A stretch of 64,000 nt of DNA from an uncultured Pelagibacteraceae bacterium (GTDB taxonomy: Bacteria; Pseudomonadota; Alphaproteobacteria; Pelagibacterales; Pelagibacteraceae): NCBI GenBank assembly GCA_902542975.1, contig CACBWM010000001.1:1-64000 (forward strand). The letters are read 5' to 3'. Shown piece by piece: positions 2 through 11,290 of this stretch. The translations under genes and the position numbers were made by a program. The notes below the pieces were generated by a model. It was given only the letters and a program-made list of their open reading frames with translations. It was not told the origin of the DNA and searched no databases. Position 1 is the stretch's first letter, and each line of letters opens with the position of its first letter.

Positions 2-1357
2 GTTGATGGTGATGCGGTCAAATTAAAGAAAAGAAGAAAAATAACATCTGAAACACAGAGAAATTATCTTTTAATTCCTGAAAGCTACCCATTACTTAAA
101 CAAAGAGTAACTTTAAAATTTAAAAATTTAGATTTTAAAGAAACAATGAAAATGATGGGTAAAATTGGCGAAATTAATGTTTTAGTAGGAGATGAGGTTG
201 CTGGTGCAATATCAGCTGAGTTAGTTGATGTGCCATGGGATAAAGCATTCCAAGCTCTTTTAGACATGAAAAATTATGCTTCTGACATAGATGTTAACAG
301 CAATTTAATAAGAATTCACTCTCCTGAAACATTAACTGCACAAGAAAATTACAAATCTGAAAGAGCACAAGCAGTTAAAAATAAAGTAGAATTAGAAGAT
401 AGTGTTGAACCAATTATATCTGAAATTTTTAGATTATATTATATATCTCCTGAGTTAGCAAAAGCTACAATTGAAGAATTATTTCAGACTGGTTCAGGAG
501 AAGCATCAACATCTCCTATAAAAATTACAGAAGAGACAGCCACTAGATCAATTATAGTCAGAGGTAAGGAAAGAGATTTAGATACTGTAGATAAAGTACT
601 GACAGAAATAGATATTAAAACTGAGCAGGTTCTTATTGAAGCATTTGTAGTAAAAGCTACTTCTGAATTTGAGAGACAACTTGGAACAAGACTAGGAGGA
701 TATTACCAAAGGCAACAAGAGCAAATTGGTGGGGTTATTGGTACAACAAGCTCATCAGGAACTTTAGATGATACATCTGCTGCACTTGTTCAAACAGCTA
801 AAGATAGTTTAACAAATTTACCTGCAATTGGAGCGACGAGTGGTATTGGAGTATTAAAAAGAACAGGATCGGCTGTATTAAAAGCTGAAATTACAGCTTT
901 AGAAAAAACAGGTATAGTAGAGACAATTTCAAATCCAAAAGTATTTACAATCAACAATCAACCAGCATCGGTTACGCAAGGTAAAGAAATTCCTTACGAA
1001 ACAACATCTGAAGGTACAACATCAACATCATTTAAAGAGGCAGCATTAAAACTTCAAGTTACACCTAGCATTATTGGAGATGGAAATGTATTATTAGACA
1101 TTCAGGTAAATAATGATGATGCTGATACTTCTCAGTCAGAACCTCCTATAACTAAGATGGAAATTACCACGAAATTATTGGTTGCTGATGGAGATATTGT
1201 TGTAATTGGTGGAATAAAATCAAATAATGTGACAAAAGCAAATGAACAGGTTCCAGGTCTTGGAAATGTCCCTGTAATTGGTAATCTATTAAAATATAAA
1301 AAGAATGAAGACAATTTGGAGGAATTGCTTATATTTATAGCACCAAGAATTTTATAA
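2..1357 (+). CDS. pilQ: Type IV pilus/type II secretion secretin, 5' end cut by window
   Basis: Outer-membrane secretin through which a pilus or pseudopilus leaves the cell. The frame is open to the left edge: 48 further codons lie upstream of the first in-frame ATG at 146, and they complete a short N-terminal STN-type domain (about positions 98-270), so 146 is not the start and the signal peptide lies outside the window. The second half carries the secretin fold with NPKVFT, VTQGKEIPY and the near-C-terminal signature VPGLGNVPVIGNL. The gene overlaps the ATPase gene by one base (TAATG), and secretin, ATPase and GspF-type protein follow in order, as in MSHA/PilQ-type loci. Family assignment is firm; whether it is PilQ, MshL or GspD proper cannot be decided here. 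Confidence 0.9.
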   Translation, partial: VDGDAVKLKKRRKITSETQRNYLLIPESYPLLKQRVTLKFKNLDFKETMKMMGKIGEINVLVGDEVAGAISAELVDVPWDKAFQALLDMKNYASDIDVNSNLIRIHSPETLTAQENYKSERAQAVKNKVELEDSVEPIISEIFRLYYISPELAKATIEELFQTGSGEASTSPIKITEETATRSIIVRGKERDLDTVDKVLTEIDIKTEQVLIEAFVVKATSEFERQLGTRLGGYYQRQQEQIGGVIGTTSSSGTLDDTSAALVQTAKDSLTNLPAIGATSGIGVLKRTGSAVLKAEITALEKTGIVETISNPKVFTINNQPASVTQGKEIPYETTSEGTTSTSFKEAALKLQVTPSIIGDGNVLLDIQVNNDDADTSQSEPPITKMEITTKLLVADGDIVVIGGIKSNNVTKANEQVPGLGNVPVIGNLLKYKKNEDNLEELLIFIAPRIL

Positions 1358-3105
1358 TGCTTAAAATTAGTAGAGAGTCTGAAATAAATTTAATTAATAT
1401 TCTAATTGATCAGGATATTATTTCTGGAAAGGATTTAGTTGATATCAAGAAAGCCTCTTCAGAGGGGGAAAAATCTCAAATAGAAGCAGTATTTGAATTA
1501 AAGTTAACTGACGAACAAAAAATTTTAGATCTTTTAGTAAATGAACAATCTCTAGATATAATCGATTTATCGACTGTAGAAATCACTGATGAAATAAAAT
1601 CTATTCTTCCTTCAAATTATATAAATATGAATTTTATAGCCCCATTCAAAATTGAGGGAAATATTTTACATATAGCAATTCCAGACAGTTCAAAATTAAG
1701 TTTGATGCGAAATTTAAAAACTATCACAAAAAAAGATATTGAATTACACGCTGCTAAAATTTCAGATATTTCATCCTATATAGACAGATTATTAGCTGAT
1801 GGTGAAACTACAATGGAGTCTATTCAAAAGGCTAATAGCGAAAAAACTAAAACTTTTGATTATGACGTTGATGAAAACGCTGAGGTATTAGAAGAGAAAC
1901 CAGAGGAAGATATCGAAGCTATTGAAAATGAATCTGACGTTATCAAATTCAGTACAGCTGTAGTTGCAGAAGCAATTAAATCGGGTGTATCAGATATTCA
2001 CATTGAACCGTACAGATTTTCATCAAGAGTTAGATATAGATTGGACGGTATCTTAACTGAACAAGAGCATTTTGCAAAATTTCTACATTCAAATTATGGG
2101 GCAGTGGTTACACGTTTTAAAATTATGGGTAAACTTGATATTGCTGAAAGAAGGTTACCACAAGATGGAGCTATACCATTTAAAATAGACGGAAAAGTAG
2201 TTGATCTTCGATTATCTATTTTACCAACTGCAAACAATGAGAGAATTGTAATGCGGGTACTTAACAAAGATGCGGGAGACATAAGTTTAGAACAATTAAA
2301 TTTTGAAGAAACAGATTTATCTAATTTACGAAAAGCAATTCATGGAACGCAGGGATTAGTACTTGTAACAGGACCAACGGGTTCAGGAAAAACAACAACA
2401 CTTTATAGTATTCTTAAAGAAGTTTCTAAACCACATTTAAATATTTTAACTGCTGAAGACCCAGTTGAATATGAATTGGATGGTGTTGGACAAGTTCAAA
2501 TAAAAGATGATATTGGTTTAAATTTTGCTGCAGCACTTCGATCTTTTTTAAGACAAGACCCAGAAATTATTCTTGTTGGTGAGATGCGGGATAAAGAAAC
2601 TGTAGATATTGGATTAAAGGCAGCACTAACAGGACACTTAGTATTTAGTACTTTACACACAAATGATGCACCAAGCACAATTACTAGATTACAAAACATG
2701 GGAACCCCAGATTATTTAATAAGTGCAGCTGTTTCACTTGTGCTAGCACAAAGGCTTGCAAGAAAAACTTGCACTGAATGTAGAGAGCCAGATGAAGATA
2801 TTACACCAAAAGCACTTGCTGACTTAGGATTTACTGTAGAACAAGCATCAAGAGCAAAAGTTCAAAAGGGTAAAGGATGTGCTAAATGCAAAGATAGTGG
2901 ATATAAAGGACGAATGGGAATTTATGAAATTTTAAATGTTACAAAACCAATTAAAGAAGCAATTTTAAGAAAAGCAACCACTCCTGAGTTAAAAGAAATT
3001 GCTGCCAATGAAGGTTTTAGAACAATGCAAGATATGGGAAGAGAGCTTATTTTAACAGGAGACTTGAATTTTAGAGAATACGATAGAGTTCTATCGATGG
3101 ATTAA
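1357..3105 (+). CDS. pilB: GspE/PilB-family pilus assembly ATPase
   Basis: Hexameric cytoplasmic ATPase that powers pilin polymerisation. The 582 residues begin with a GspE N-terminal domain (about 1-160), followed by an acidic linker (about 170-195) and the motor domain with Walker A GPTGSGKTTT near residue 338, an Asp box, Walker B with LVGEMRD, and the His box LVFSTLHTND. Two C-x-x-C pairs (CTEC and CAKC) form the tetracysteine zinc site typical of PilB/GspE/MshE rather than PilT. It starts on the last base of the secretin stop and is followed 2 bp later by the platform gene, so translation is probably coupled. Confidence 0.93.
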   Translation: MLKISRESEINLINILIDQDIISGKDLVDIKKASSEGEKSQIEAVFELKLTDEQKILDLLVNEQSLDIIDLSTVEITDEIKSILPSNYINMNFIAPFKIEGNILHIAIPDSSKLSLMRNLKTITKKDIELHAAKISDISSYIDRLLADGETTMESIQKANSEKTKTFDYDVDENAEVLEEKPEEDIEAIENESDVIKFSTAVVAEAIKSGVSDIHIEPYRFSSRVRYRLDGILTEQEHFAKFLHSNYGAVVTRFKIMGKLDIAERRLPQDGAIPFKIDGKVVDLRLSILPTANNERIVMRVLNKDAGDISLEQLNFEETDLSNLRKAIHGTQGLVLVTGPTGSGKTTTLYSILKEVSKPHLNILTAEDPVEYELDGVGQVQIKDDIGLNFAAALRSFLRQDPEIILVGEMRDKETVDIGLKAALTGHLVFSTLHTNDAPSTITRLQNMGTPDYLISAAVSLVLAQRLARKTCTECREPDEDITPKALADLGFTVEQASRAKVQKGKGCAKCKDSGYKGRMGIYEILNVTKPIKEAILRKATTPELKEIAANEGFRTMQDMGRELILTGDLNFREYDRVLSMD

Positions 3106-3107
3106 AA

Positions 3108-4349
3108 ATGTCATCCGAAACATTTTCATATAAAGGTATATCTGCAGGTAAATATATAGAGGGTGAGATTGAGGCAATTAATCAAGAGGAAGCCTCGTTT
3201 AAACTTAAAGAACAAAAAGTAATAATCACAAATTTAACAAAAGTTAAAAAGAAAAAAGCAGAAAAAGATAAAAAAAAGGGTGGTGGATTTTCATTTGGAA
3301 AAAAGAAAGTAAAGCCAGAAGATGTAATGATTTTCTCCAAACAATTTGCAACAATGGTAAAAGCTGGATTGCCAATATTAAATGTATTGGGAATGTTAAG
3401 AGATCAAATTGAACATCCCACGATGAAAGAAATTATTGAAGATGTTAGAAAAAATCTTGAAGGTGGTATCACTTTATCAAAGTGTTTTGAAAAATACCCA
3501 AAAATATTTGATAATGTTTATATAAATCTTATCAAAGCGGGTGAAGCCAGTGGTAAATTAGATGTTTTCTTGCTTAAATTAGTCGATTCTCTTGAAAAAA
3601 GAGAAAAAGTAAAAAAGAAAATTAAAAGTGCATTAACCTATCCAGTGGTTATGTTTTCAGTCGCCATAATAGTTATGGTTTTCATGTTAATTAAAGTTGT
3701 TCCAGTATTTGCTAAAATGTACGATGGAATGGGTGTTGCATTACCAACACCAACTGCCGTAATTATGACTGCAAGTAACTTTATGAGAGGTGCTGGTGGT
3801 TTAACTTTAGGTTTAGTTCTACTTACAATATTTATTATTTTTAAATACACAACCACTAAGATGCCAGCAGTAAGATATAAATGGCATCAACAAGTTCTTA
3901 GAATGCCAGTATTTGGTGATATGATTTTAAAGTCTTTAATAGCAAGAATTTCATTGATCATGGGAAACTTAAGTGCTGCAGGTGTTAATTTACTTGAAAG
4001 TATTGAGATTGCTAAATCAGTCAGCAACAATGATGTAGTAACACAAGCATTAGAAAATGTTAAAAAAGGAGTATTTTCAGGAGATACATTAACTAAACTT
4101 TTTTTAAAAGAACCTGTATTTCCACCAACGTTTAGCCAATTAATTTCTGTTGGAGAGCAAACAGGAAATTTAGATGAGATGTTTAGTTCTGTCTCTGCTT
4201 ATTATGAGGAAGAATTTGATACCGCAGTTGATAACATGTCTAGTTTAATTGAACCTATAATGATTGTATTCATGGGAACAATGATTGGTGGATTAATGAT
4301 TGCGATGTACTCACCAATATTCAACGTTGGTGCGATTATTGGAGGTTAA
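3108..4349 (+). CDS. pilC: GspF/PilC-family inner-membrane platform protein
   Basis: Inner-membrane platform that couples the ATPase to pilin insertion. It has 413 residues with a lysine-rich cytoplasmic N-terminus (about 35-75), two GspF repeats (KQFATMVKAGLPIL and LISVGEQTGNLDEMF regions) and three membrane segments near 183-205, 228-250 and 385-405, which is the family architecture and length. It is third in the operon. Its last 4 bases overlap antisense with the end of the RsbW-like gene, so the pilus operon and the regulatory pair converge. No prepilin peptidase or PilM-P gene is visible in the window. Confidence 0.92.
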   Translation: MSSETFSYKGISAGKYIEGEIEAINQEEASFKLKEQKVIITNLTKVKKKKAEKDKKKGGGFSFGKKKVKPEDVMIFSKQFATMVKAGLPILNVLGMLRDQIEHPTMKEIIEDVRKNLEGGITLSKCFEKYPKIFDNVYINLIKAGEASGKLDVFLLKLVDSLEKREKVKKKIKSALTYPVVMFSVAIIVMVFMLIKVVPVFAKMYDGMGVALPTPTAVIMTASNFMRGAGGLTLGLVLLTIFIIFKYTTTKMPAVRYKWHQQVLRMPVFGDMILKSLIARISLIMGNLSAAGVNLLESIEIAKSVSNNDVVTQALENVKKGVFSGDTLTKLFLKEPVFPPTFSQLISVGEQTGNLDEMFSSVSAYYEEEFDTAVDNMSSLIEPIMIVFMGTMIGGLMIAMYSPIFNVGAIIGG

Positions 4350-4774
4350 TAATTTATTTTCTTTGTTAAAATTAAATGATTTATCCAAGGCTTTTCACCT
4401 TCTTTAAATACTACTGCGTCCATAATTTGTTGTATAAAAAAAGTTCCTAAACCACCTGGTTTAACATCATCAATTTTTCTGTGCCGAACATTTTCTTTAT
4501 CAACAGGTCTTCCCTTATCAAAAAAACCTATCTCTAATTCACCATTGTTTAAAGAAATTTTTATCTCCATTTTATCTTCAGTGTCTTCACCTTGATAAGC
4601 ATGCTTGACAATATTTTGTGCAGCCTCGGCAATTGCTAAAACTAATTCGTCTTTTAAATCTTGATCGATATTTACTTTTTCAAATACTTCTCTTGAAAAT
4701 GATCTTACATCTTTCAAACTTGCAGAACTAACAGCAAAGTCTCGTTGTTCTGAAATTTGTCTTACCGCAACCAT
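4346..4774 (-). CDS. RsbW-like HATPase anti-sigma factor/serine kinase
   Basis: Small (142 aa) GHKL ATPase of the anti-sigma-factor/serine-protein-kinase group. The N box runs through E50-A-A-Q-N54, the G1 box is DKGRP (D86, G88) and the glycine-rich G2 loop is GGLG at 107-110, so the ATP pocket is intact; there is no histidine-kinase dimerisation domain. In partner switching such a protein phosphorylates its STAS partner and sequesters a target. The STAS gene lies 3 bp upstream on the same strand. No sigma factor is adjacent, so the sequestered target is unknown. Nearby Amt-PP2C genes at 6482 and 9053 could supply the opposing phosphatase; that link is inference. Confidence 0.88.
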   Translation of the reverse strand: MVAVRQISEQRDFAVSSASLKDVRSFSREVFEKVNIDQDLKDELVLAIAEAAQNIVKHAYQGEDTEDKMEIKISLNNGELEIGFFDKGRPVDKENVRHRKIDDVKPGGLGTFFIQQIMDAVVFKEGEKPWINHLILTKKINY

Positions 4775-4777
4775 TAT

Positions 4778-5077
4778 TTATCCTAAATTTAATATTTGCT
4801 CGAGTTTTGCCATCATAATTACTTTTAAAACTGATTTACTTATATCTTTTAAAATTACTTTTTTTCCCAACTCATTCGCTTTTTGATGACTCTCAATAAG
4901 AACCGAAATACCGGATGAGTCCATATATTGAACTTCTTTTAAATTAAGATGAACTTCTTTCTTTGCCTCAATTAAAGGCATTATAATTTCTTTTGCTTTT
5001 TCAGTTACATCCATATCAATTTCACCATCAAGGTGAACAATGGATACATCTCCTTCTTCTGTAACTTTATATGACAT
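4778..5077 (-). CDS. STAS-domain anti-sigma factor antagonist (RsbV/SpoIIAA-like)
   Basis: A single STAS domain of 99 residues. The phosphoacceptor loop is YMDSSGI, with Ser55 aligned to the phosphorylated serine of SpoIIAA, and it is intact. In the known mechanism the unphosphorylated form binds the RsbW-like kinase and frees its target; phosphorylation reverses this. It is first in a two-gene operon with the kinase 3 bp downstream, and is divergent from the first pilin gene, sharing the 141-bp region 5078-5218. Confidence 0.9.
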   Translation of the reverse strand: MSYKVTEEGDVSIVHLDGEIDMDVTEKAKEIIMPLIEAKKEVHLNLKEVQYMDSSGISVLIESHQKANELGKKVILKDISKSVLKVIMMAKLEQILNLG

Positions 5078-5218: not shown

Positions 5219-5701
5219 ATGAAAAAAAATAATAAAGGTTTTACACTTATAGAATTATTAGTTGTTGTAGCAATTATCGGTATTTTAGCAGCAGTTGGAG
5301 TTGTTGCATACTCGGGTTACACATCAGGAGCTAAAAAACAAGCAGCTAAATCAAATCATTCAGCAGTTGTTAAATACATAGCAGCAGAATTACAAAAATG
5401 TAATTTAGGAGAGTCATCAGCTATGGGAGGTAATCTTACTTGCTCAGGTAAAACTAGAAAAACTGTTAAGGACGCTGCAGCATTAGCATTAGCAGATTTT
5501 AAAAACCCATACGATACTTCAAAACAAGCAGTAAGACCGAATACTAGTGACACATCATCTAGCTCTGCAAATGGTGGATATACGAATTTAACTGATAACA
5601 GTTCCAGTTCTAACACGATAGACGTTAAAACTTGCTTTACACAAGATAGCGAATGCTCAACATCTGGTAACGTTTCAGAAAATTCTGTCGTAGTAGAGTA
5701 A
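5219..5701 (+). CDS. Type IV prepilin, major-pilin-like
   Basis: Prepilin of 160 residues. The leader is short and basic and ends at G7, followed by FTLIE and a hydrophobic helix (to about residue 30), with Glu at +5 of the mature protein: a class III signal cleaved by prepilin peptidase. The globular part is rich in Ser, Asn and Thr and carries four cysteines, two of them near the C-terminus as in a disulfide loop. It has its own upstream region shared with the divergent STAS gene. A second, different pilin follows 21 bp downstream. Confidence 0.92.
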   Translation: MKKNNKGFTLIELLVVVAIIGILAAVGVVAYSGYTSGAKKQAAKSNHSAVVKYIAAELQKCNLGESSAMGGNLTCSGKTRKTVKDAAALALADFKNPYDTSKQAVRPNTSDTSSSSANGGYTNLTDNSSSSNTIDVKTCFTQDSECSTSGNVSENSVVVE

Positions 5702-5722: not shown

Positions 5723-6163
5723 ATGACTTCCAAAAGCTCTGGGTTTACCCTTATTGAGCTTTTGGTAGTTGTAGCAATCCTTGGAATTATAGCTGCTATT
5801 GGAATAACAAGTTATAATGGCTACGTTTCATCAACTAAGAAAAAATCAACTGAGAACGTTCTAAGACAAATAGCGCTAGCTCAAACCGAATTTTATTCTG
5901 ACAATCAAATATACTATTACGATAATACTGGTAATGACTGTACAGCTACCGTCACTACGTCTCAATCAATAGAAACAGATTTATTGGGTGGTTCGAAAAC
6001 AATAATAGATCCAAAAGATAAAAAAGCATTAAATGGATATTGGATTTGTATTTCTAATGATACTTCAGGTTTTAAAGCAAAAGCTATAGAAGAAAATAAC
6101 CGTAGTGGCTGTAAAATAGAATTATTCGCTGATACTAGAGTTGAAAGAAATAAGAAGTGTTAG
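5723..6163 (+). CDS. Type IV prepilin, second pilin
   Basis: Prepilin of 146 residues with leader ending at G7 and the FTLIE motif followed by a hydrophobic helix. Beyond the helix it shares little with the preceding pilin. It has a cysteine near residue 74, one in the WICIS segment, and a C-terminal cysteine two residues after an RNKK stretch, as in disulfide-looped pilins. It could be a minor pilin or the alternate structural subunit; the sequence alone does not say which. Confidence 0.9.
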   Translation: MTSKSSGFTLIELLVVVAILGIIAAIGITSYNGYVSSTKKKSTENVLRQIALAQTEFYSDNQIYYYDNTGNDCTATVTTSQSIETDLLGGSKTIIDPKDKKALNGYWICISNDTSGFKAKAIEENNRSGCKIELFADTRVERNKKC

Positions 6164-6168
6164 TTTAA

Positions 6169-6417
6169 ATGAATTTAGAGCCAGTAAAAAAACTAATTTC
6201 TAATTTCATAAATTCTGAAACAACAAAAAATCAAAAAATTTATTACACACTCAGTTTAGGTTGGATAATTTTTATCGGTTATTTAACCTGGTGGAATGGA
6301 CTAAGGAATCCGAGTTTAGATAAAAGTTTTAGGTGGGATGAGTGGATTTGGTTTGGATTAGTCCCTGCTTTATCACCTTATTTATTCTATTTTATCTGGA
6401 AGAAAAAAGACAACTAA
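6169..6417 (+). CDS. Small two-helix membrane protein, unknown
   Basis: 82 residues with two predicted membrane helices (about 27-42 and 60-76), a tryptophan-rich loop between them and a basic C-terminal tail (KKKDN). I do not recognise a family. It begins 5 bp after the second pilin stop and so is probably cotranscribed with the pilins, which makes a pilus-related role possible but unproven. The following gene has its own Shine-Dalgarno after a 64-bp gap. Confidence 0.65.
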   Translation: MNLEPVKKLISNFINSETTKNQKIYYTLSLGWIIFIGYLTWWNGLRNPSLDKSFRWDEWIWFGLVPALSPYLFYFIWKKKDN

Positions 6418-6481: not shown

Positions 6482-8632
6482 ATGGAGAACGTCGATTTGG
6501 AATCAGTAAAATCATTTGTTGATACCCTATGGGTTATAGATTGTGCAATTTTAGTTTTCATTATGCAAGCAGGTTTTATGTGTATGGAAACTGGTCTTTC
6601 AAGACATAAAAATAGTATTAATGTTGCTCTTAAAAATGCTGCTGACTTTGGTCTTGCGGTTGTAATTTTTTGGCTATTTGGTTTTGGTTTGATGTTTGGA
6701 AAAAGTTTTAATGGCTATTTTGGAACTGATTTATTCTTTTTTAAAACTGATCAAGCTGAGTACATGACTTACTTTGTCTTTCAAGCAATGTTTGTTGCAA
6801 CTGCAGCTACAATTGTTTCAGGAGCTGTTGCTGAAAGAATGAAGTTCAACGGTTATTTAATAATTACTATTATAGCTACAGGTATTATTTATCCAATAGT
6901 TGGTCATTGGGCCTGGTCTTCGAGTTATTTAAATAATATCGATGCTACAAGACAATTACTTGCGGTTACTGGGCAAGTTAAAACTACTGGATGGCTGACA
7001 GATATTGGATTTGTTGACTTTGCTGGAAGTACAATAGTTCATTCTGTTGGTGGATGGATCGCGCTTTCTGCTGTTTTAATTTTAGGTCCAAGAATAGGAA
7101 AATATTCAGATGCAAACAAAGGAAAGTTCACAGGATCAAGTTTTCCTTTAGCAGTTTTGGGAACCCTAATTTTATGGTTTGGATGGTTTGGTTTTAATGG
7201 TGGAAGTAATGGAGCTATGGATGAGGCAGTTCCTCTTATTTTAATAAATACATTTCTGGCAGCTTCTTTTGGATTATTAACGGGCCTTGGAATTTCATTT
7301 GCATTATTTAAAAAACCAGATCCTTATTACGTTATACTTGGACCACTCGCAGGGTTAGTTGCAATTACGGCTGGATGTAATTCGATGACATCTGTGACTT
7401 CAATATTTGTTGGAATTATAGGAGCGGTAGTTGCAATTTTTGTAAACGAATTTTTAAATAAATTTGAAATAGATGATGTTGTTGGTGCTGTACCTGTTCA
7501 TTTAGCAGCAGGGGTTTGGGGAACTATTGCTGTAGGATTATTTAGTGATCTTGAAATACTTGGAACAGGATTAACAAGATTAGAACAAATCAAAGCACAG
7601 TTTATTGGAATTGTTTCGATCGGTGTATTCTCGTTTTTTGGTTCATATATTTTATTAAAAATTTTAAATTATTTTTATCCATTAAGAGTTAGTCCGCTAC
7701 ATGAAGAGTTAGGTTTGAATATTGCTGAGCATAATGCAACTTCTGTAGAACACGATTTAATTACAATTTTAGAAAAACAGTCTGAGTCTGGTGACTTAAC
7801 TATTAGAGGTCCACAAGATCCATTTACTGCTGGTGGTGTGATCGGGCTTTATTACAACAGATTGATGAGTAAGCTAGAAACTAGTGAAGCTGAAAAGAAA
7901 GTATGGAGAGATAGAATATCAAATGAAGTAAAACTTGCAGTAAAAGTTCAAGAAAACTTTTTACCAAAGAGGAATTTAGAAAATTACCCTGTGCATGGAA
8001 TTAATATCGCTGCTAGAGAAGTTTCAGGAGACTTCTTTAGTTTTTATCCTCACAATGATAGCGTTTACTTTATTATTGCAGATGTTGCAGGTAAAGGAAT
8101 TCATGCTGGAATGGTAATGGCAAAAGCATCAACTCTTTTTGAAATTATGTCTAGAGACCAAGTAGATCCGGATGAAATGATGTTTCATATGAATAATGAT
8201 CTATTTTTAACTAAAACTGGAGGAATGTTTGTAACAAGTATATTAGGAGAATATAATATGAGGACAGATGAATTAAGATGGGTAAATGGCGGTCATCAGC
8301 CAGCTTTAATCAGATCATCATCTGGAAATTATGAGCAATTTGAAAGTAATTCTCCACCAATGGGTGTAATACTTCAAAAGGATAAGTCAGTCTATAAAAC
8401 TCACAAAGTTAAGCTAGAAAATAAAAGGTTTTGCGCTTTCACTGATGGTTTATCCGAAAGCTTAAATAGCTCAGGTGAGGAAATAGGAATAGATGGATCA
8501 ATTCAAATAATTGAGAAAAACTTCAATATGGACATAAAAAAACAACTAAATGAAATCACAAAAGAAGTAGTTAAAGTTGCAGGTGAAAATAAGTTAAGTG
8601 ATGATTTAACGTTAATTTCGATTGGAAAATAA
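6482..8632 (+). CDS. Ammonium channel fused to PP2C/SpoIIE-type phosphatase (copy 1)
   Basis: A 716-residue fusion. Residues 1-400 are a complete Amt channel: D179, the twin pore histidines H187 and H340, the FNGGS motif with S242 at the E. coli AmtB Ser219 position, and the conserved GHWAW segment. A linker (about 403-480, including EELGLNIAEHNAT) leads to a PP2C_SIG/SpoIIE domain with SGDF (515-518), DVAGKG (534-539), GGH (603-605), TDG (654-656) and DD (707-708); the expected acidic metal-binding residues are present. It is preceded by AAGGAAG. Amt proteins fused to output domains such as histidine kinases are known as ammonium sensors; with STAS and RsbW-like genes 1.4 kb away, an RsbU-like role is inferred. 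It may also transport. Confidence 0.92.
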   Translation: MENVDLESVKSFVDTLWVIDCAILVFIMQAGFMCMETGLSRHKNSINVALKNAADFGLAVVIFWLFGFGLMFGKSFNGYFGTDLFFFKTDQAEYMTYFVFQAMFVATAATIVSGAVAERMKFNGYLIITIIATGIIYPIVGHWAWSSSYLNNIDATRQLLAVTGQVKTTGWLTDIGFVDFAGSTIVHSVGGWIALSAVLILGPRIGKYSDANKGKFTGSSFPLAVLGTLILWFGWFGFNGGSNGAMDEAVPLILINTFLAASFGLLTGLGISFALFKKPDPYYVILGPLAGLVAITAGCNSMTSVTSIFVGIIGAVVAIFVNEFLNKFEIDDVVGAVPVHLAAGVWGTIAVGLFSDLEILGTGLTRLEQIKAQFIGIVSIGVFSFFGSYILLKILNYFYPLRVSPLHEELGLNIAEHNATSVEHDLITILEKQSESGDLTIRGPQDPFTAGGVIGLYYNRLMSKLETSEAEKKVWRDRISNEVKLAVKVQENFLPKRNLENYPVHGINIAAREVSGDFFSFYPHNDSVYFIIADVAGKGIHAGMVMAKASTLFEIMSRDQVDPDEMMFHMNNDLFLTKTGGMFVTSILGEYNMRTDELRWVNGGHQPALIRSSSGNYEQFESNSPPMGVILQKDKSVYKTHKVKLENKRFCAFTDGLSESLNSSGEEIGIDGSIQIIEKNFNMDIKKQLNEITKEVVKVAGENKLSDDLTLISIGK

Positions 8633-8712
8633 TGTTCTCCCCATTTTGATCTGATTTATTTTGTATATTTTTTCTATAAATGATACGATTTATAAAAAAC
8701 GATAAGGAAATT

Positions 8713-9042
8713 ATGTTTAAAAAAATAGTCTTAACTATAGGTTTTCTTTTATTTACTAGTAATTTATTTGCTGCTCAAACGCAAATCGCACAAGTAAATG
8801 GCATGATATGTTTAAAGTGTCAAAAAATGGTCACTGAAGCATTACAAAAGGCTTGTCCTGATGCTACAGTTAAAGTTTCTTGGCCAGAAGGGGTTGCGGT
8901 ATCTACTTTTGCAGATAAATCAAATTTATCTGAGGATGAATATAAAAACGCAATTTTAGGTACTGGATTTGAAGTGGTTAAAGTCATTAGTGTTGATGGC
9001 ATAATTACAGACGCTGAAGAAGCAAGAAAACTTATAGATTAA
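8713..9042 (+). CDS. Secreted heavy-metal-associated (HMA) domain protein
   Basis: About 109 residues with a cleavable signal peptide (hydrophobic stretch ending FAAQ) followed by an HMA/ferredoxin-like fold whose metal loop is GMICLKC, close to the GMxCxxC signature of copper chaperones and of the MerP/CopZ group. I chose ATG 8713 over an upstream in-frame start at 8680 because AAGGAA lies just before it and the protein then begins directly with a signal peptide. It sits between the two Amt-phosphatase genes, 10 bp before the second, so cotranscription is likely. Its ligand and link to ammonium are unknown. Confidence 0.82.
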   Translation: MFKKIVLTIGFLLFTSNLFAAQTQIAQVNGMICLKCQKMVTEALQKACPDATVKVSWPEGVAVSTFADKSNLSEDEYKNAILGTGFEVVKVISVDGIITDAEEARKLID

Positions 9043-9052
9043 AAAAAATTTT

Positions 9053-11290
9053 ATGACTGTAGCTGAACTCCAAATTTTGGTTGATAAGCTACAGTCTAAA
9101 ATAAGTCAGTTAGAGCTCACAAGCAAAGGAGCAATCAAAGCAACAGAGTTTAGATTAGAAGCTGTACTACAAGCGAATTTAGATACATTTTGGTTATTAA
9201 TTTGCGCTATTTTAGTTTTCTTGATGCAGGCTGGATTTATGTGTTTAGAATCTGGTTTATCAAGAAGCAAGAATAGCATTAACGTTGCTCTTAAAAATAT
9301 TACAGATTTTGGAATAGCCGTAGTTACTTTTTGGGCTTTTGGTTTTGCATTGATGTATGGAACCAGTGTGATGGGCTTGTTTGGTAATAAATTTTATTTT
9401 TTTACAACCAAGGTTGCTGGTTATCAAACATATTTTGTATTTCAGGCAATGTTTGTAGCAACAGCAGCAACTATCATATCTGGAGCTGTTGCTGAAAGAC
9501 TTAGGTTTTTCTCATACGTAATAATTACTTTTATAACTTCAGGAATTTTATACCCAATAGTAGGCCATTGGGCGTGGGCTTTTGATTTTACGAATCCAAC
9601 AGTAAAATTTGGTTGGCTTGGTAAGATGGGTTATTTAGACTTTGCTGGTGCATCTGTTGTTCATTCTGTTGGAGGTTGGGTGGCATTAGCAATATTACTC
9701 ATTATTGGAAGTAGAACGGGCAGATTCAGAAAAGATAAAGATAAAAAATTATTTCAAGGAAGTAATACACCAATTGCTGCTCTTGGCGCTTTAATTTTAT
9801 GGTTCGGTTGGTTTGGATTTAATGGTGGCGCAAATGGAGCAATGGATTTAAAAATTCCATTGATATTAATTAATACCTTTTTATCAGCATCATTTGGCTT
9901 AATCTTTTCAAGTGCAATGGGTATTATCGTAATGAAAAAACCAGAGCCATTATTTATGATTACAGGTCCTTTGGCTGGTTTAGTCTCGATTACAGCAAGC
10001 TGCGCTTATGTTAATCCATCAGAGGCAATATATATTGGAGCAATTGGAGGAATTTTATCAGGCTCAACAATTATTTTATTAGAGAAATTAAAAATTGATG
10101 ATGTTGTTAGTGCTATACCTGTTCATCTAGTAGGAGGTATGTGGGGAACTATATCAGTTGCGATATTTGGTGATTTCGAAATGATGGGATTAGATAAAAC
10201 AAGATTAGAACAATTAACAATTCAAATCATAGGAACATTTAGCATTGGTGGATTTTGCTTTTTTGCTTCATACATAATTTTTAAATCTATAAATTATATT
10301 TATCCACTTCGAGTAGGTAAAATCCAAGAGGAGCTTGGTTTAAATATATCAGAACACAACGCATCAACAGATACTCACGAATTACTCGAAGTACTAACCA
10401 ATCAAGCAAAAACTGAGGATTATTCATTAAGAGCTCCTCAAGATCCATTCACTGATAGTGGTATTATTGGTACCCAATACAATTTTTTGATGGAAAAATT
10501 AGAACAAAGTGAAAAACAAAAAAATAAATGGAAAAACCGAGTTTCATCTGAAATTAAATTAGCAATGAATGTGCAGAGACGTTTAATGCCAAATAGAGAT
10601 TTGTCTAATTATCCAATTTATGGACTAAATATTCCAGCCAGAGAAATTTCAGGAGATTTTTATGATTTTTATTTACATGATGATCTTGTTTACTTCACAT
10701 TGTCAGATGTTTCTGGCAAAGGAGTTAATGCTGGTATGGTTATGGCTAAGGCAATTACTTTATTTAAAATTTTTTCTAGATTAAAATTTAAACCTAATGA
10801 AATTCTTCTTAAAATGAACAATGATTTGAATGAAACTAATCCGCCAGGCACCTTTATAACCTCAATAGTCGGATGCTATAATATTAAAACAGACATTATT
10901 GAAATTGCAAATGCAGGTCATCAACCAGCTTTGTTGAGAAAAGGAAAGGATTTTGTTGAATATTCATCTTCATCTACTCCTCTTGCAATAGTCAAACATA
11001 AAAATGAAAATGTTTATAAGCTAGATACTTTTAAATTAGATGGAGGAAGAATATATTGTTTTACTGATGGTTTTTCAGAATGTATGGACGAAAATAAAAA
11101 AGAAATAGGTATTGATGGAGTTAAGAAACTTTTACTTAATCATCAAAATTCTTCTTTACAAAAAGAACTTGAAAATTCTACAGAGGAAATAAGACTTAAA
11201 AGTCTCAAAAAAGATTACAAAGAGACTGGTATAAAAGCAAATAACGATATACTTGATGATGATTTAACTATCATTGGAATTGGGTATTGA
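9053..11290 (+). CDS. Ammonium channel fused to PP2C/SpoIIE-type phosphatase (copy 2)
   Basis: A 745-residue paralogue of the 6482 gene with the same architecture. It adds a predicted N-terminal amphipathic/coiled-coil segment (about 1-40) before the Amt domain. D196, H204 and H358 are kept, but the AmtB Ser219 position is alanine (FNGGA, A260). The phosphatase motifs SGDFYD (533-538), DVSGKG (552-557), AGH (621-623), TDG (671-673) and DDD (735-737) are intact, and there is an insertion of about 20 residues before the last motif. It may be tuned for sensing rather than transport, which is inference. A relic of a further copy begins immediately after the stop. Confidence 0.92.
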   Translation: MTVAELQILVDKLQSKISQLELTSKGAIKATEFRLEAVLQANLDTFWLLICAILVFLMQAGFMCLESGLSRSKNSINVALKNITDFGIAVVTFWAFGFALMYGTSVMGLFGNKFYFFTTKVAGYQTYFVFQAMFVATAATIISGAVAERLRFFSYVIITFITSGILYPIVGHWAWAFDFTNPTVKFGWLGKMGYLDFAGASVVHSVGGWVALAILLIIGSRTGRFRKDKDKKLFQGSNTPIAALGALILWFGWFGFNGGANGAMDLKIPLILINTFLSASFGLIFSSAMGIIVMKKPEPLFMITGPLAGLVSITASCAYVNPSEAIYIGAIGGILSGSTIILLEKLKIDDVVSAIPVHLVGGMWGTISVAIFGDFEMMGLDKTRLEQLTIQIIGTFSIGGFCFFASYIIFKSINYIYPLRVGKIQEELGLNISEHNASTDTHELLEVLTNQAKTEDYSLRAPQDPFTDSGIIGTQYNFLMEKLEQSEKQKNKWKNRVSSEIKLAMNVQRRLMPNRDLSNYPIYGLNIPAREISGDFYDFYLHDDLVYFTLSDVSGKGVNAGMVMAKAITLFKIFSRLKFKPNEILLKMNNDLNETNPPGTFITSIVGCYNIKTDIIEIANAGHQPALLRKGKDFVEYSSSSTPLAIVKHKNENVYKLDTFKLDGGRIYCFTDGFSECMDENKKEIGIDGVKKLLLNHQNSSLQKELENSTEEIRLKSLKKDYKETGIKANNDILDDDLTIIGIGY

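Follow-up and report, generated by a model that had tools for sequence, protein, structure and literature searches.

Amt-PP2C fusion proteins in a type IV pilus island: ammonium may help control pili in some ocean SAR11 bacteria

What does a protein that joins an ammonium transporter (Amt) domain to a SpoIIE-type serine phosphatase (PP2C) domain do in a type IV pilus gene island? Two such proteins, Amt-PP2C fusions a and b, are encoded on the forward strand at positions 6482-8632 and 9053-11290 of a 64,000-nucleotide stretch of DNA (the window), the start of contig 1 (CACBWM010000001.1) of assembly GCA_902542975.1. The source is an uncultured Pelagibacteraceae bacterium of the SAR11 family, whose genome of 1.137 Mb in 33 contigs is 80.9% complete. 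A plausible answer, to which we assign a probability of about 0.5, is that the fusions respond to ammonium and feed an Rsb-like partner switch that is dedicated to the type IV pilus and whose target is not a dedicated sigma factor. The locus itself is genuine, shows good conservation within a part of SAR11 and puts known parts together in a new combination; the mechanism set out below is likely.

Both open reading frames are intact. Fusion a (716 residues) has Amt at residues 17-420 (PF00909, E 4.6e-111) and PP2C at 526-714 (SpoIIE, PF07228, E 7.1e-36); fusion b (745 residues), which is 53% identical to a, has Amt at 47-438 (E 2.9e-106) and PP2C at 544-741 (E 1.5e-26). Besides the fusions, the genome as a whole has one plain Amt and, on contig 4, one GAF-PP2C, which brings both the Amt and the SpoIIE matches to three; STAS and HATPase_c_2 are each matched once. 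A sample of 197 genomes of the SAR11 family, many of them incomplete, yielded 29 fusions in 22 genomes; one fusion, that of G131 (genomes and loci are cited by our G and L handles), is truncated by a contig end. The twin histidines, Phe gate and selectivity-filter Trp are kept in all 28 full-length fusions, and the four PP2C motifs checked, aspartates included, in 29/29. The motif aspartates are in fact kept in 55/55 domains from these islands (29 Amt-, 16 CHASE2- and 10 GAF-PP2C). A preliminary description of the window had credited both proteins with a full Amt and a full SpoIIE/PP2C domain, and the Pfam matches and these motif counts bear it out. An AlphaFold2 model of fusion a, built with 20 sequences and used only for its linker and for a fold match (mean predicted local distance difference test score, pLDDT, 59.4), places one long helix at about residues 450-493 between the two domains, loosely consistent with a signalling linker.

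The nearest solved proteins to the Amt part are Sd-Amt1 of Shewanella denitrificans (45% identity) and Ks-Amt5 of Candidatus Kuenenia stuttgartiensis. Sd-Amt1 (PDB 8qj3, 8qj4, 8qpf), whose entries are titled 'Receptor Sd-Amt1' (OFF- and ON-state) and 'Ammonium Transporter Amt1', has the same site residues as the fusions, Phe at position 51 included, and its phmmer alignment continues through the linker to Sd-Amt1 residue 464 but stops ahead of the fusions' PP2C; a literature search for Sd-Amt1 turned up no paper. Ks-Amt5 is reported as an ammonium sensor histidine kinase that binds ammonium without efficient transport, with an ammonium site in the structure formed by Q24, E31, N47, D50, T51, T109 and T112 (PMC5764959). 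Like the SAR11 proteins it has the Amt C-terminus fused to a cytoplasmic signalling enzyme, although its output is a histidine kinase rather than a PP2C in a partner-switch locus. At these seven positions 28/28 full-length fusions read Q, E, N, D, F, T and S: five are identical to Ks-Amt5, T112 is replaced by Ser, and Phe stands at T51. The pore-blocking Y30 and F34 of Ks-Amt5 are not kept in the fusions, and F27 is. Of the first four site residues, not one is present in the transporter Af-Amt1; these four positions read H, E, N and L in the genome's own plain Amt and A, E, N and L in five plain Amts from alphaproteobacteria (L121-L125). The comparison set aside L114, which is without its N-terminal part, and L116, L120 and L126, for which another open reading frame had been aligned. 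The Amt domains resemble solved ammonium receptors more than transport channels, and the term channels in the preliminary description is probably the wrong word.

A search for relatives outside SAR11 covered 398 genomes from across the phylum, among them G000 and G009, with the two best Amt candidates scored per genome. Among the matches listed, the 15 best non-SAR11 genomes have Amt open reading frames of 741-1298 residues whose alignments reach model position ~455-462 and so take in the linker; plain Amts first appear at the sixteenth genome and soon predominate. Eight of the long frames were scanned with Pfam (L098, L102, L104, L107, L110, L111, L118 and L119), five of them cut at the locus end. 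Four carry GGDEF and EAL (one EAL being partial and weak), one PAS-GGDEF, one HisKA-HATPase and one MCP, while L107 has PAS only; no PP2C was matched in the part available of these eight frames. Because the best non-SAR11 long Amts share the linker and seven of the eight scanned carry histidine kinase, GGDEF/EAL or MCP outputs, the SAR11 fusions look like a known receptor chassis with a different output. Among the matches listed in this search, which with two candidates per genome does not establish absence, only the two proteins of the window span Amt and PP2C. No title in the open-licence literature was found for an Amt-PP2C fusion or for this SAR11 locus, and an Amt review (PMC10433425) uses none of the words fused, diguanylate and GGDEF in its main text.

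The probable partners of the phosphatase domains lie a short distance upstream on the reverse strand; they are the STAS and HATPase genes mentioned in the preliminary description, and both are real by Pfam. The HATPase_c_2 gene (4346-4774) encodes an RsbW-like protein kinase of 142 residues (PF13581, E 4.8e-21; RsbW 6m36, E 1.2e-5), and the STAS gene (4778-5077) a switch protein of 99 residues with an MDSSGI phosphorylation motif (PF01740, E 1.6e-16). Their nearest solved structures are RsbW and SpoIIAA/RsbV, respectively, and they match RsbW and anti-sigma-antagonist models. The DSSG motif is kept in 42/42 SAR11 STAS sequences, a count that takes in those from tandem genes. In the HATPase, 31/31 sequences retain boxes N, G1 and G2, G1 being somewhat variable. 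The phosphorylated serine is predicted to be Ser55 by alignment with the serine phosphorylated in SpoIIAA. All the components of an RsbU-RsbV-RsbW or SpoIIE-SpoIIAA-SpoIIAB system are therefore present, namely a PP2C, a STAS protein with the phospho-serine motif and a HATPase kinase with intact boxes. The SAR11 locus differs from those systems in that no dedicated sigma-70-family factor was found with it in the 12 genomes examined, and in that it has an Amt-borne phosphatase and several phosphatases per pair, and sits in a pilus island. The phosphoproteome report on SAR11 strain HTCC1062 describes one Ser/Thr kinase, RsbW (SAR11_0057), and no known protein phosphatase (PMC13198564); in contrast, the STAS/HATPase pair in our 197-genome sample is never without a SpoIIE protein. 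Tandem STAS genes (94 and 99 residues), both with DSSG, occur in 10 fetched genomes (e.g. L042:10491-11071 and L044:13436-14016).

Co-occurrence across the sample ties the fusions to this pair. STAS is found in 37/197 genomes, but G048 and G074 were excluded because they have it only in proteins of more than 500 residues; the other 35 have a short STAS, in an open frame of at most 182 residues. HATPase_c_2 matches at E 0.001 in 135/197, the weaker listed matches being nearly all in proteins of more than 340 residues; strong stand-alone matches (E 2.5e-16 or better, open frame of at most 157 residues) occur in 35 genomes, and these are exactly the 35 with a short STAS. The length and score limits were chosen in this analysis. 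The pair is absent from the other 162, so that most sampled SAR11 genomes are without the system. SpoIIE proteins are present in 38/197, comprising all 35 pair genomes plus G010, G146 and G172. All 22 fusion genomes have both the pair and T2SSF, the domain of PilC, an association of fusion and pair well beyond chance (Fisher 1.9e-20), so that the refuting condition named in the preliminary description, co-occurrence no better than chance, does not arise. T2SSF is found in 46/197 genomes, among them all 35 with the pair (Fisher 1.7e-29); the Fisher values ignore kinship and count genomes as independent, which they are not. In a separate scan of named genomes, restricted to the best 80 of 477 relatives and unable to show absence elsewhere, all titles are Pelagibacteraceae or Pelagibacterales, some of them near-identical to the window. 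At least 3.5 kb precedes the fusion in 69 of these 80 loci, and 64 of the 69 hold STAS and HATPase there; the pair was not seen in the stretch covered in L177, L183, L191, L194 and L197, the rest of whose genomes was not searched. The SpoIIE proteins of G172 and G146 (L013 and L014, in a 429-residue frame) are without a STAS, strong HATPase or T2SSF match and are perhaps relics or draft-genome gaps.

The surroundings of the switch were read in 60 stretches, one of them from contig 4 of the window's own genome, with genes assigned by blastp against reference proteins of the window and five other loci. The recurrent order in relatives is PilMN-PilO-PilP-PilQ-PilB-PilC, then HATPase-STAS, the pilins and the sensors. 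In 17/22 fusion genomes an Amt-PP2C follows two pilins on the same strand with at most small genes or the other fusion between. Fusions in G051, G164 and G093 are at least 20 kb from STAS or on another contig (as in G093), G131 runs into contig ends, and G004 has a different arrangement with STAS-HATPase a few genes from the fusion. Of the two fusions of G035, one occupies the slot and the other is about 1.05 Mb off by coordinate; such distant fusions (G035, G093) are still in genomes that bear the pair. The pair is found among or near pilus genes in three arrangements, that of the window, that of L047, and that of L056 and L088-L094, and the PilC proteins of the latter two are only 39-45% identical to that of the window. 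By genome, the arrangements other than that of the window are seen in G009, G017 and G078, where a STAS gene neighbours PilD and the HATPase gene is near PilT, and in G004.

The slot after the pilins may hold Amt-PP2C a, b or both, a CHASE2-PP2C with FecR and TPR/beta-barrel proteins, or both kinds of sensor. CHASE2-PP2C is found in 22/35 pair genomes, 16 by blastp (five of these also by Pfam) and the remainder by Pfam (G043, G063, G083, G170, G184 and G194); 11 pair genomes have it without an Amt-PP2C, and in G035 it adjoins PilD rather than occupying the slot. The two pair genomes with neither kind have other phosphatases, a GAF-PP2C in G097 and a receiver-domain PP2C in G022. A GAF-PP2C gene neighbours that of the prepilin peptidase PilD in divergent orientation. 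The PilC tree (41 rows, 31 with the pair; 4 of the 35 pair genomes and one PilC fragment were left out) places five changes of Amt-PP2C and six of CHASE2-PP2C on its 31 pair islands. Sensors are thus exchanged around a constant STAS and HATPase, in keeping with Amt-, CHASE2- and GAF-PP2C being alternative, interchangeable inputs to one pair.

Several further observations concern these sensors. The SpoIIE protein of G022 (L213:827-2443) is a Response_reg PP2C, so that a two-component system may feed the switch there. A GAF-PP2C gene of the window's genome (L037:7863-10082, contig 4) is divergent from PilD, and this region is probably the other end of the window's island. CHASE2-PP2C together with FecR, which has a long lysine-rich tail, and the TPR/beta-barrel protein form another sensor cassette that can occupy the slot (L044:5265-10033, L051:12140-16963). 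Large autotransporter-barrel proteins lie beside the sensor slot in several genomes (L044:127-4833, L055:1933-11121).

A partner switch of this kind would be expected to act on something, and two familiar outputs were considered. Among 21 genomes searched for Sigma70_r2, two such proteins are present in each of the 12 with the switch and in 8/9 without it, with one in G182; from their lengths (about 610-640 and 300 residues) the two are taken to be RpoD and RpoH. No dedicated sigma-70-family factor was found in the 12 partner-switch genomes, RpoN not being included in the search, and a dedicated sigma output was rejected. A diguanylate cyclase output, through cyclic di-GMP (c-di-GMP) as in the HsbRAD type, was likewise rejected: GGDEF is found in 0/197 SAR11-family genomes. 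With neither a dedicated sigma-70-family factor nor a GGDEF protein accompanying the switch, a non-sigma output is probable. The pilus appears to be the best bet as target, because the pair is never found without T2SSF and is placed among or close to pilus genes in three arrangements. There are precedents in surface behaviour: SypE-SypA in Vibrio fischeri biofilm formation and HmpU-HmpV-HmpW in Nostoc hormogonium motility and polysaccharide are partner switches for which, in the account of PMC8256260, no sigma target of SypA or HmpV is identified and no Amt input is reported; they belong to other organisms and are likened here by description and not by sequence. HsbR-HsbA-HsbD of Pseudomonas aeruginosa is a PP2C/HATPase/STAS switch on motility and biofilm as well, but it reportedly acts on FlgM/FliA, on RpoS and on a diguanylate cyclase (PMC6482189).

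A plausible scenario is that Amt-PP2C is an ammonium receptor built on an Amt trimer, with a SpoIIE/RsbU-type serine phosphatase as its cytoplasmic output. Ammonium in the Amt core would shift the long helical linker and so alter PP2C activity, by analogy with Ks-Amt5. The HATPase would phosphorylate the neighbouring STAS protein and the PP2C would dephosphorylate it at the aligned Ser55, with CHASE2-PP2C and GAF-PP2C feeding the same pair as alternative inputs. The resulting partner exchange would determine the state of the type IV pilus whose genes share this island, the direct output probably being a pilus component or other non-sigma target. In this way ammonium may help control pili in some ocean SAR11. 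A bolder version, which we offer tentatively and regard as somewhat doubtful as a whole, is that the ammonium receptor passes on its signal by dephosphorylating a serine, through a switch that acts directly on the pilus machinery and needs neither a sigma factor nor a second messenger. Streamlined ocean bacteria would in this version deploy or retract pili in ammonium-rich patches around plankton cells, with interchangeable Amt, CHASE2 and GAF sensor phosphatases. The locus supplies sensor phosphatases for an RsbW-type kinase, tied to pili, in SAR11 lineages other than that of HTCC1062. If the scenario is true, Amt receptors gain a protein-phosphatase output, partner switching gains a sensory input of known chemical identity, and pilus use gains a cue that can be tested, in a bacterial group that is among the most abundant of the ocean.

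A number of points weigh against a pilus-dedicated ammonium switch. Three plain Amts (L113, L115 and L117) also carry Q, E, N and D at the first site positions, and L110, a long fused Amt, is without D50 and T109; the receptor-site signature is therefore supportive but neither proves nor defines a receptor, and we rejected it as proof. The fusions themselves have Phe at site position T51, and the transporter pore residues checked are likewise kept in them. The model of fusion a is weak (mean pLDDT 59), and PP2C is usually dimeric, a mismatch in symmetry with the Amt trimer. No direct target of the switch was identified, and sigma-54 (RpoN), which lies outside the sigma-70 search, is a possible output. 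The pilus does not need the pair, since 11/46 T2SSF genomes are without it. Presence of the pair is a single change on the PilC tree (support 64), so the pilus association may largely be one event carried with the island; pilus and switch may therefore have joined once and then been gained or lost as one island.

Two alternatives also keep the partner switch. One, which we consider unlikely, is an RsbUVW- or chlamydial-Rsb-like system in which the HATPase holds a resident sigma factor (RpoD, RpoH or RpoN), ammonium alters transcription and the position in the island is incidental. The kinship of HATPase and STAS to RsbW, SpoIIAA/RsbV and the anti-sigma-antagonist models would suit it, and a housekeeping sigma factor is reported as a partner-switch target in Chlamydia (PMC8256260), but two Sigma70_r2 proteins are present with or without the switch in 20/21 genomes and the pair is accompanied by PilC in 35/35. 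Quite unlikely, in our view, is the other, that a plastic pilus island merely carries a hitch-hiking switch whose input and output are unrelated to pili. It would account for the single change on the PilC tree and for the other genes, such as those for autotransporter-like barrels, that occupy the same slot; against it are the presence of the pair near pilus genes in three arrangements, two of them with distant PilC proteins, the same-strand order of pilins and sensor in 17/22 fusion genomes and the GAF-PP2C gene that adjoins PilD.

Two further readings turn on ammonium itself. The preliminary description had proposed that the fusions let the cell sense nitrogen without PII, and PII (GlnB/GlnK, PF00543) is indeed found in 0/51 genomes of the genus, the 80.9% complete genome of the window included. 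Candidatus Pelagibacter ubique reportedly has a PII-independent nitrogen response, going by the title of one study. The receptor-type Amt, the phosphatase output and the switch logic also stand with that proposal. It is not supported as a PII replacement or general sensor, in which Amt-PP2C would report external ammonium and STAS/HATPase adjust assimilation; this we regard as very unlikely. PII is found in 19/197 genomes and in 0/22 with the fusion, yet fusion and PII are not significantly associated (Fisher 0.14), and most of the 178 genomes in which PII was not found are without the fusion. The recurrent neighbours of the fusions, as far as they are identifiable, encode pilus parts, sensors and barrels and no proteins of nitrogen assimilation, and phosphatases with CHASE2, GAF or receiver domains likewise accompany the pair; the candidate of a PII substitute was rejected on the first of these counts and on the Fisher result. 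Least probable to us is a working transporter on which the PP2C acts locally, for example by gating uptake, with no link to STAS. The intact twin histidines, Phe gate and Trp in 28/28 would allow this, but STAS and HATPase are present in all 22 fusion genomes, their PP2C motifs agree with those in the GAF- and CHASE2-PP2C proteins from these islands, and the nearest solved relatives are receptors. An ammonium-responsive switch on the pilus is thus the reading that we prefer.

The rest of the window's island consists mostly of pilus genes on the forward strand. A PilQ secretin of 403 residues (146-1357) has lost its 5' part at the contig start, PilQ being 516 residues in the near relative L038, and matches TIGR02515 at 291.3 bits (cut-off 284.35) and Secretin (PF00263). 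It is followed by a PilB-like assembly ATPase with MshEN (1357-3105; T2SSE PF00437, E 2.3e-124; MshEN PF05157, E 2.8e-14), for which the top NCBIfam model is PilB with a score under its cut-off, and by a PilC-like inner-membrane platform protein (3108-4349; T2SSF PF00482, E 2.2e-61). The HATPase gene overlaps pilC by 4 bases at its 3' end, tail to tail, and a divergent gap of 141 bases separates STAS from the first of two type IV pilins (5219-5701 and 5723-6163; N_methyl PF07963, E 1.3e-10 and 9.9e-9). From this pilin to fusion b all genes are on the forward strand with gaps of 5 to 64 bases (open reading frame starts as listed), a spacing that points to an operon. Type IV pilus parts thus include PilQ, PilB, PilC and pilins in the window and PilMN, PilO, PilD and PilT in relatives; PilQ and PilT exceed their NCBIfam cut-offs, the remaining named parts are assigned by Pfam, and the labels PilP, PilY1 and PilW are given from position only.

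Two small genes lie among the sensors. Between the second pilin and fusion a, a membrane-protein-like open reading frame of 82 residues (6169-6417, forward strand) belongs to no known Pfam family and recurs in related islands. Between the fusions, also on the forward strand, is a gene (8680-9042) for a MerP/CopZ-like, heavy-metal-associated protein of 120 residues with a GMxCxxC motif, which is probably exported and is a possible metal or periplasmic input. The window copy has no Pfam match, its NCBIfam matches (MerTP, E 6.2e-7; CopZ, E 1.2e-5) are all under the cut-offs, and an AlphaFold2 model (mean pLDDT 55.6) was not used. The gene is directly 5' of fusion b in 8/8 genomes with b, and in G004 it adjoins the single fusion.

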